From: Micromonospora violae | GTDB taxonomy: Bacteria; Actinomycetota; Actinomycetes; Mycobacteriales; Micromonosporaceae | Assembly: GCF_004217135.1 (NCBI RefSeq) | Contig: NZ_SHKK01000001.1 | Coordinates: 744,001-808,000 of the forward strand | Length of the DNA: 64,000 nt | Direction: 5' to 3' | Shown: piece after piece, positions 19,040-20,450 of the stretch | How the letters are laid out: each line of letters begins with the position of its first letter | Position numbering within the stretch: the stretch's first letter is position 1 | Program-made: the position numbers and the translations under genes | The notes under the pieces: model-generated | Database searches by the model: none | The model's input: the letters and a program-made list of their open reading frames with translations, nothing else | Told to the model about the DNA's origin: nothing

Positions 19040-19639
19040 GTGACCGTGACCCGCGGCGTCGTGACCCTGTCGCTGGTGACCGTGTTCGCCGGCCCCCTGC
19101 TGGCCGCCGCGCCCGCCCTCGCCGCTCCCGTGCCGGTCGCCTCGATGCTTGCCGCGCCCGCGCCGCAGCCTGGCGGGCCGCCCGGCGGTGCGCCGCAACC
19201 AGGGCCGTCGACGGACATCTTCGTCGAGGTGAGCCCCAGCACGGTGCAGCCCGGCTACCTGGTCGGCATCCGGGCCAGTTGCCGGGACAACTCGGTGGGC
19301 GCCACCGTGGTCTCCGACGCCTTCGGCGCGATCGGCGTGCAGCCGCAGCGCGGGGTGCTCACCGCCGCGCCGATGGTGCGCGAGCGCACCCGCCCCGGCA
19401 ACTACCGGGTCAAGCTGGAGTGCCGCGACGGCGAGACCGCCTCGACCATGCTCCAGGTGGTCAAGAAGATCCCCGTCCACCCCAGCCGTGGTCCGGCCAC
19501 CGGCTTCGGCGGGAGCGCCGGCGGGATGACCGGCAAACTGCTGCTGCCCGTCGGCGCGGCAGTGACCATCAGCGGGCTGGTCCTCGCCGTGGTGGCACTG
19601 CGCCGACCGCGCACCGCCCGTGGCACTGCGGGTCGGTGA
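19040..19639 (+). CDS. Secreted, membrane-anchored protein; candidate class F sortase substrate
   Basis: 199-residue exported protein. Signal peptide 1-29 (ends PALAAP), Pro/Gly-rich linker 40-57, a beta-type extracellular domain about 58-145 with two Cys (81, 128) able to form a disulfide, then G-P-A-T-G at 151-155, a Gly-rich stretch, a hydrophobic helix 168-187 and a basic tail RRPRTARGTAGR. This is the architecture of a cell-wall sorting signal, but with GPATG instead of LPxTG. The sortase gene follows within 8 bp. GTG at 19040 follows AGAGGGGG. Its extracellular role is unknown. Confidence 0.82.
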   Translation: MTVTRGVVTLSLVTVFAGPLLAAAPALAAPVPVASMLAAPAPQPGGPPGGAPQPGPSTDIFVEVSPSTVQPGYLVGIRASCRDNSVGATVVSDAFGAIGVQPQRGVLTAAPMVRERTRPGNYRVKLECRDGETASTMLQVVKKIPVHPSRGPATGFGGSAGGMTGKLLLPVGAAVTISGLVLAVVALRRPRTARGTAGR

Positions 19640-19646
19640 GGCGGCC

Positions 19647-20450
19647 ATGGTTTTCCGACCCCCACCGCCCTCCGCCCGCCCCCCGGCGTCCCGCCCGTCG
19701 GTCGCGGCCCACGTGTCGACCGACACCCGCCTGTCCACCGACGCTCGCCTGCCCGGAGGTGCCCGTCCGCCGGTCGACCCGTCGGTGGCGGCGCGTCCGC
19801 CGACCGCCGTCGCCCCCCGGCGTAGTCGGCCGCCCGGCCGCCGCCCCTGGTCCGTACCGTTGGCGGTGGTGTTGGTGTTGGTCGGGGTCTTCGCCACCGG
19901 GGCGGGGCTGGGCCGCTCGGTCGGCCCACTCGACTTCGCCCCGGCCGGCGGCGACCGGCCGGCCCGCAGCGAAACGGTCGGGTTGTCGGCCAGTCGGCCG
20001 GTGCGCCTGTCGGTGCCGGCGATCAAGGTGGCCGCGCCGGTGGCGCCCGTCGGGCAGGCGCGCGACGGCTCGATCGCCGTACCGCCGTTGGAGCGGCACA
20101 ACGAGACCGGCTGGTACGACCGTGGGCCCACACCCGGCGAGCCCGGCCCGGCGGTGATCGTCGGGCACGTGGACACGAAGACCGGCCCGTCGGTCTTCTA
20201 CGACCTGGGCAAGCTGCACCCCGGCGACCTGATCGAGGTGGCTCGGGCGGACGAGTCGGTGGTGGTGTTCCGGGTCGACACCGTCGAGCACTTCCCGAAG
20301 GACCAGCTGCCCGCCGAGCGGATCTACGGCCACGACGGGCCACCCGCGCTGCGGTTGATCACCTGCGGCGGGCAGTTCATCGGGGGCCGCACCGGCTACG
20401 CCGACAACGTCATCGCCTTCGCCACCATCGCGTCCACCCGCAAGCCCTGA
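19647..20450 (+). CDS. Class F sortase
   Basis: Membrane-anchored transpeptidase, 267 aa. A Pro/Ala/Arg-rich cytoplasmic region (1-68) precedes one helix (69-88). The sortase barrel has catalytic His174 (IVGHVDTKTG), Cys240 (LITCGG) and Arg248 (GGRTGY), and the short-barrel layout of class F sortases of actinobacteria. ATG 19647 lies 8 bp after the preceding stop with GGTGAGG in front; an in-frame GTG at 19620 would overlap. Probably attaches the neighbouring protein to the cell wall, or to pilus-like partners elsewhere. Confidence 0.9.
   Translation: MVFRPPPPSARPPASRPSVAAHVSTDTRLSTDARLPGGARPPVDPSVAARPPTAVAPRRSRPPGRRPWSVPLAVVLVLVGVFATGAGLGRSVGPLDFAPAGGDRPARSETVGLSASRPVRLSVPAIKVAAPVAPVGQARDGSIAVPPLERHNETGWYDRGPTPGEPGPAVIVGHVDTKTGPSVFYDLGKLHPGDLIEVARADESVVVFRVDTVEHFPKDQLPAERIYGHDGPPALRLITCGGQFIGGRTGYADNVIAFATIASTRKP

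Follow-up and report, generated by a model that had tools for sequence, protein, structure and literature searches.

The stretch of DNA analysed here, which we call the window, comprises 64,000 nucleotides of the genome of Micromonospora violae. Positions 19040-20450 of its forward strand carry a gene for a protein of 199 residues followed by the gene for a class F sortase. The reading frame of the former opens with GTG, and its stop codon is separated from the ATG of the sortase gene (19647) by 7 bp, not by the 8 bp given in the initial annotation; an alternative in-frame GTG at 19620 would make the sortase gene overlap the substrate gene. The flanking genes all lie on the opposite strand and encode DUF3516 helicase, Methyltransf_4 (which we take to be of the TrmB type), ABM, exonuclease/endonuclease/phosphatase and PAC2 proteins, none of which points to a link with the sortase-substrate pair. 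The features of the pair are the following:

19040-19639, forward: putatively exported substrate protein of 199 residues with a GTG start (signal peptide, Ig-like domain, sorting signal, membrane helix, basic tail), as read from the sequence and its homologues
19040-19126, forward: putative Sec-type signal peptide, residues ~1-29 (basic start, hydrophobic core, ALA-A), assigned by eye
19217-19462, forward: predicted Ig-like beta-sandwich cargo domain, residues ~60-141, with conserved Cys81 and Cys128
19490-19513, forward: sorting signal GPATG-FGG, residues 151-158, predicted cut T154/G155
19538-19612, forward: C-terminal membrane helix (residues ~167-187) and RRPR tail (188-191)
19647-20450, forward: class F sortase of 267 residues, from the ATG at 19647
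19851-19910, forward: N-terminal membrane helix of the sortase, residues ~69-88, a hydrophobic stretch assigned by eye
20166-20168, forward: catalytic His174 of the sortase, present in 126/126 aligned rows (125 loci, the window sortase counted twice)
20364-20366, forward: catalytic Cys240 of the sortase (TCGG), present in 126/126 rows (the window sortase counted twice)
20379-20393, forward: residues 245-249 of the sortase, the loop between Cys and Asn, in which G246 marks the GPxTG clade
20406-20408, forward: Asn254 of the sortase at the usual place of the catalytic Arg, from the alignment (the Arg place matched by eye)

The 199-residue protein contains, in the right order, all elements of a sorting layout, namely motif, membrane helix and C-terminal basic tail: GPATG occupies residues 151-155 (window 19490-19504), the helix is predicted at residues 168-187 (residues 153-172 of the model), and RRPR follows directly, so that these parts of the initial annotation are confirmed. 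A beta-type domain with two cysteines had also been proposed as the cargo. The only cysteines are indeed those at positions 81 and 128, and the domain is predicted to be a seven-stranded beta-sandwich of the Ig-like fold; the fold matches are to common Ig or macroglobulin-type domains and point to no function. The compact domain is separated from the putative signal peptide by a Pro/Gly-rich stretch; a sub-threshold Pfam match to CBP_BcsO (19.5 bits, cut-off 27) falls on the Pro-rich part and was attributed to chance.

The adjacent enzyme is a class F sortase, as had been claimed: it scores 204.1 bits against the NCBIfam class F model NF033748, above the curated cut-off of 166, and both the catalytic His and the catalytic Cys are present within the sortase fold. 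Position 254 is occupied by Asn in 125 of 126 rows (the window sortase counted twice) and in 160/160 rows of a further alignment, and passages of PMC6998099 describe Asn in place of the catalytic Arg for actinobacterial class F enzymes; the eight class E sortases inspected have Arg before the same strand where class F has Asn254, the position being matched by eye. Sortases of the clade whose partners end in GPxTG have W/F244, G246 and G247 in common in the loop that follows the active-site Cys, with G246 found in 41/41 members of this clade versus a fraction of 0.02 of the 119 other class F sortases. A single-sequence search retrieved no solved structure for the window sortase; a search with the class F profile reached the structures of other sortases from E 1.5e-8.

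Homologues of the 199-residue protein were found in 78 of the 121 genomes of the host's family and, in a second search, in 295 of 354 genomes. Conservation of PATG among them had been set beforehand as a check on the proposed signal, and it was upheld in a somewhat broader form: of all 128 homologue matches in the family, which were examined by a script seeking x-x-x-[TAGSVN]-G-x-[GASN] with GP favoured, 110 end in GPxTG, where x is A in 82 cases, N in 13, H in 9, K in 2, and D, E, R or Q in one each. In 12 of the 128 matches the reading frame was picked by the motif itself; the same frames had appeared without the motif filter. Among the 18 matches that were not counted, the signal reads GP[A/D]AG in seven, GAPAG in three, APTTG in two and GVPAG in one; a further two are GPNTG, mis-registered by the script (L403), and GPATG in a frame-fused copy (L010), and the rest are L384, without a readable signal in frame, and L406 and L407, without signal or sortase. 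Since GP[A/D]AG, GAPAG and GVPAG occur, Thr at P1 is not universal. In the fused copy (L010 / L145, Micromonospora sp. AMSO31t) the substrate frame does not stop after the tail but reads through the sortase gene out of frame with it, which may reflect a frame error in the assembly.

The other check set beforehand, a sortase beside the homologues, was upheld as well. A sortase lies downstream at 109 of the 110 GPxTG homologues, the exception (L014) being at a contig end, and is present at 125 of the 128 homologue loci, those without one being L014 and the two weak matches with no recognisable tail (L406, L407). The second copy of the protein in the M. violae genome also adjoins a class F sortase. 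At 80 named loci a sortase was adjacent in 76, the other four lying at contig ends; the GPxTG count at these loci is no evidence because the search pattern contained the motif. A protein search gave 880 matches, and GPATG is present in all of the best 120 of the 880, the profile having included the tail; the names among the matches listed are mostly 'hypothetical protein', with a few UniRef names such as MYXO-CTERM domain-containing, Neocarzinostatin family, Ig-like domain-containing and Sortase. The possibility that the relatives are confined to the family was ruled out, as the core-domain profile A2, which lacks the tail, had matches in 11 further genomes among 396; these matches outside the family comprise 16 loci, with a sortase at 10 (one only partly). 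On an 86-row sortase tree, 40/40 GPxTG-partnered sortases fall into one clade of 42, so that GPxTG partners track one sortase clade, in support of the proposal that the enzyme has a dedicated partner next to it. Common descent accounts for part of the conservation within the GPxTG family.

Across the 7.14-Mb genome of the host (one contig), codons spelling G-P-x-T-G-x-G-G turn up 18 times, below the 52 occurrences of the reversed control, and the GPATG string alone was accordingly rejected as telling. Only two of the 18 occurrences precede a C-terminal membrane helix; they belong to the 199-residue protein and to its paralogue, each of which adjoins a class F sortase. It is by placement and conservation, rather than by the string GPATG, that the signal is more than chance. 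The genome holds five class F sortases over the cut-off versus five signals: a profile of 27 tails gave five full-length matches (E 4.5e-12 to 1.4e-7), each of which ends 237-385 bp ahead of the domain of one of these sortases. These five are rows of the profile and therefore match by construction, so that only the absence of a sixth signal is informative, and none was found among the candidates scored (150 of 550). The next matches (E ~1e-3) share only the helix and the Arg tail, and one of them is an LPITG protein (L283); the genome also encodes a class E sortase (L414). A divergent sortase-like gene of the same genome (L007; G000, 3123888-3124205; 47.9 bits to PF04203) sits on the longest branch of the 86-row tree, and the single helix-tailed reading frame seen near it is without the glycine-rich signal.

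A search with NF033748 of 396 Actinomycetota genomes gave 127 places over the cut-off, of which 125 were read (G398:C15 and G366:C3 were left out). After a hand check, 105 of these 125 class F loci have a nearby partner ending in a signal, mostly just upstream of the sortase. Whatever the cargo, the partner ends in some version of P-x-G-G-V-x-[T/A]-G-x-G-G, followed by a membrane helix and an Arg tail; the broader consensus is approximately P-x-G-[G/A/P]-[V/P/A]-x-[T/A]-G-x-G-G. The signal detector itself picked 104 of the 125 loci, and six picks, three false (L214, L227, L262) and three mis-registered (L242, L247, L257), were left out of the composition analysis, leaving 98 tails (96 unique); the hand count of 105 restores the three mis-registered loci and adds L218, L227, L254 and L268 by eye. 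In some loci the partner is not adjacent, being separated from the sortase by an intervening gene in several or placed downstream of it (L255, L260, L261, L271). The remaining 20 loci (e.g. L098, L103, L107, L109) show no signal-bearing partner in the stretch read; for four of these, near contig ends, the sequence upstream amounts to no more than 353 bases; given these contig ends and the downstream partners at other loci, the missing partners may simply be out of reach.

The pattern was compared with shuffled sequences in 91 upstream tails that were chosen, independently of any motif, only by a C-terminal hydrophobic stretch and basic residues, four of them being unrelated reading frames (L206, L210, L255, L267). 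The P-anchored pattern occurs in 69 of the 91 as against a mean of 1.8 and a maximum of 7 in 200 composition-keeping shuffles, and [TA]GxGG in 62 as against a mean of 7.2 and a maximum of 13, the patterns having been drawn up with some of the data already known; LPxTG occurs in none of the 91. The strict signal is present at 71 of the 125 class F loci versus 0 of 30 class E loci of the host's family. The latter are on average shorter than the class F loci and have no LPxTG-type neighbour either, so that this control represents background, not a different class E signal. One LARTG-type tail was seen within a class F locus (L076).

In the 96 unique detected tails, P4 is G in 64, P in 10 and A in 8; P3 is V in 65, P in 10, I in 8, A in 7 and M in 6; P1 is T in 50, A in 42 and G in 4; and G occupies P1' in 96/96 and P3' in 94/96, figures that are partly by construction because the detector demanded [TAG]-G-x-[GA]. 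The cargo of the partners is unrelated across loci: among ten partners scanned, DUF4397, Ice_binding, CHRD, DUF4331 and Ig-like domains were found, or none known. Partners at three loci (L100, L250, L266) have an ice-binding-like domain (PF11999) before the signal. Mapped onto a 105-row sortase tree, the residue at P1 (T/A/G, seven labels set by hand) shows clustering, with 16 changes versus a shuffled mean of 37.3, but it does not mark a single clade. Seven loci of genus g50, probably Streptomyces (L199, L200, L202, L206, L210, L086, L087), have two candidate partners each, namely an opposite-strand neighbour ending in RGGLGGS or a variant and a more distant same-strand reading frame ending in G[VA]xAGxGG. 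The non-canonical layout, without the LPxTG leucine, that had been claimed for the 199-residue protein is confirmed, and its wider reach beside class F sortases generally had gone unnoticed; on the preferred reading, Micromonosporaceae have in GPxTG-x-GG their own form of a glycine-rich signal that is common near class F sortases of Actinomycetota.

As a database model, this general signal is not new, since NCBIfam contains NF058571 (GVDTG_CTERM, 'GVDTG sorting domain-containing protein'), which is known by its name and a one-line description and has the same layout and register as the partner tails. At E <= 0.01 the model matches 77 of the 96 class F partner tails and 22 of 32 GPxTG-family proteins. 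Four of ten full-length partners pass its cut-off, two from the host genome (L003, L006) and L089 and L225; L234 and L241 stay below it, and L046, L198, L203 and L207 give no match. The 199-residue protein itself has no match to it at E <= 1 (cut-off 29 bits): its tail, P-S-R-G-P-A-T-G-F-G-G, keeps the register but has Arg for Gly and Pro for Val. It also differs from LPxTG-anchored proteins (TIGR01167) in having GPATG instead of LPxTG, and no NCBIfam family matches it at E <= 1. In titles, abstracts and passages of the literature, with subscription journals mostly outside the scope, no description of the glycine-rich class F signal, 'GVDTG' as such included, was found.

Two proteins of Actinoplanes missouriensis also come close to the 199-residue protein. 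According to passages of Tan et al. 2026 (PMC13251363), the srtF genes of this organism were deleted singly and in combinations up to the quadruple mutant, deletion of all four class F sortases gave no phenotype, and phenotypes came from SrtE only. AMIS_11010 (beside srtF1) and AMIS_36440 (beside srtF4), suggested by those authors as possible substrates, adjoin class F sortases, as the 199-residue protein does, and possess a signal peptide, a membrane helix and a basic tail; in the passages concerned, they are said to have no known sortase pentapeptide and are not analysed further. In genome G543, probably that of the same strain, with sortases at 55 kb and 1.17, 1.88, 3.50 and 3.81 Mb, GPATGGGG is found in the protein beside srtF1 and GVDAGGGSG in that beside srtF4, in both cases with a helix and an Arg-bearing tail behind it; beside srtF3 the sequence reads GVPSGDGG and precedes a helix, and the protein next to srtF2 stops soon after GAQTGYGG and has no helix. 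This last reading frame (L442, ~1.88 Mb), upstream of the presumed srtF2, ends in PRGGAQTGYGGLAVGG, a signal without a membrane helix, possibly by truncation, by sequence error or as a secreted form.

Two further systems can be compared. Class E sortases, also actinobacterial, use a signal followed by a helix and a basic tail, and Pro is not obligatory at P3; according to passages of the sources, their signals are LAxTG or LPVTG (SrtE1, PMC5148588; SrtE, PMC13251363), with Leu at P4, and the enzyme has the catalytic Arg, whereas in class F the partners have no such Leu and Asn stands in for the Arg. The SrtF of Cutibacterium acnes, described in passages as the sole class F sortase assayed, uses LPxTG and cuts LPQTG peptides in vitro (Di Girolamo et al. 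2019, as cited in PMC7913060 and PMC7451113). Compared here by description alone, it is likewise called class F but, unlike the enzyme of the window pair, is the only sortase of its host and has many predicted substrates.

Taken together, these comparisons of sequences show the pairing, the conservation of the signal, its co-segregation with a sortase clade and a match of five enzymes to five signals in the genome. We consider it probable that the two genes encode a dedicated enzyme and substrate, with a predicted cut between T154 and G155 and display of the Ig-like domain on the wall. We infer export, the cut site, the wall acceptor and linkage, and the biological role along the following lines. 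Sec would export the 199-residue protein, which would then be retained through its C-terminal helix and basic tail; the neighbouring sortase (His174, Cys240, Asn254) would read the juxtamembrane GPAT-GFGG and attack the Thr154-Gly155 bond, forming a thioester with Cys240; Thr154 would then be passed to an amino group of a cell-wall precursor, and the outcome would be a small Ig-like domain displayed on the wall. Several observations weigh against this reading: 20 of the 125 class F loci show no partner in the stretch read, some partners are not adjacent, Thr at P1 is not universal, the SrtF of C. acnes uses LPxTG, and loss of all four class F sortases of A. missouriensis has no phenotype.

At the last step of this scheme, the enzyme might instead hydrolyse the acyl-enzyme after cutting at the signal and so release the domain, as a shedding protease, not an anchoring enzyme. 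Hydrolysis could be promoted by the Asn that stands where a catalytic Arg is usual, and the presence of this Asn in 125 of 126 rows is a departure from the usual His-Cys-Arg set; nevertheless, the fold, the Cys and the His are those of transpeptidases, and we regard such shedding as unlikely. It seems less probable still that the glycine-rich stretch is a mere flexible juxtamembrane linker of a permanently tail-anchored protein, with the sortase as its neighbour for regulatory or historical reasons. Gly, Ala and Arg are favoured in GC-rich genomes and, as noted above, the codon strings are not enriched genome-wide (18 versus 52), but 69 of 91 tails fit the pattern versus 1.8 in composition-keeping shuffles, proteins with unrelated cargo show the same succession of residues, and the strict form is absent from the 30 class E loci.

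Equally hard to credit is anchoring of the partner by the class E sortase of the genome, with the class F enzyme acting elsewhere. The host does have such a sortase (L414) together with an LPITG protein (L283), and the phenotypes reported in the passages on A. missouriensis are those of SrtE only (PMC13251363). However, class E signals as described in passages of PMC5148588 and PMC13251363 are LAxTG or LPVTG, not GPxTG, and GPxTG tracks the class F sortase clade and adjacency to it. The dedicated enzyme-substrate pair thus remains the preferred reading.

The window pair might exemplify a more general arrangement, which we put forward tentatively, as a proposal with somewhat less than an even chance of holding in all its parts. 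Actinobacterial class F enzymes would form a distinct sortase branch, with Asn for Arg; each would serve mainly one cognate gene nearby, with its own cargo; the signal, glycine-rich and with no Leu at P4, would be cleaved at [T/A]-GxGG; and the choice of partner would be set by the loop after the Cys (W/F244, G246 and G247 in the GPxTG clade). If the loop does set this choice, several pairs could operate in parallel within a cell and interfere little with one another. As for the displayed Ig-like domain, we expect a conditional surface role, because the quadruple srtF mutant of A. missouriensis looks normal.

In passages of published accounts, what class F sortases do, or what their physiological role is, is called unknown (PMC13251363, PMC6998099), and class-specific signals are given in passages of PMC5148588 for sortase classes A to E, with none for F. 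Being orthogonal to LPxTG and seemingly tolerant of Ala at P1, the glycine-rich signal could also be of use in protein ligation. For the class F sortases themselves, the analysis supplies a signal together with a partner gene and a predicted site of cleavage, so that the question of their substrates is directly testable with the existing srtF deletion strains of A. missouriensis.
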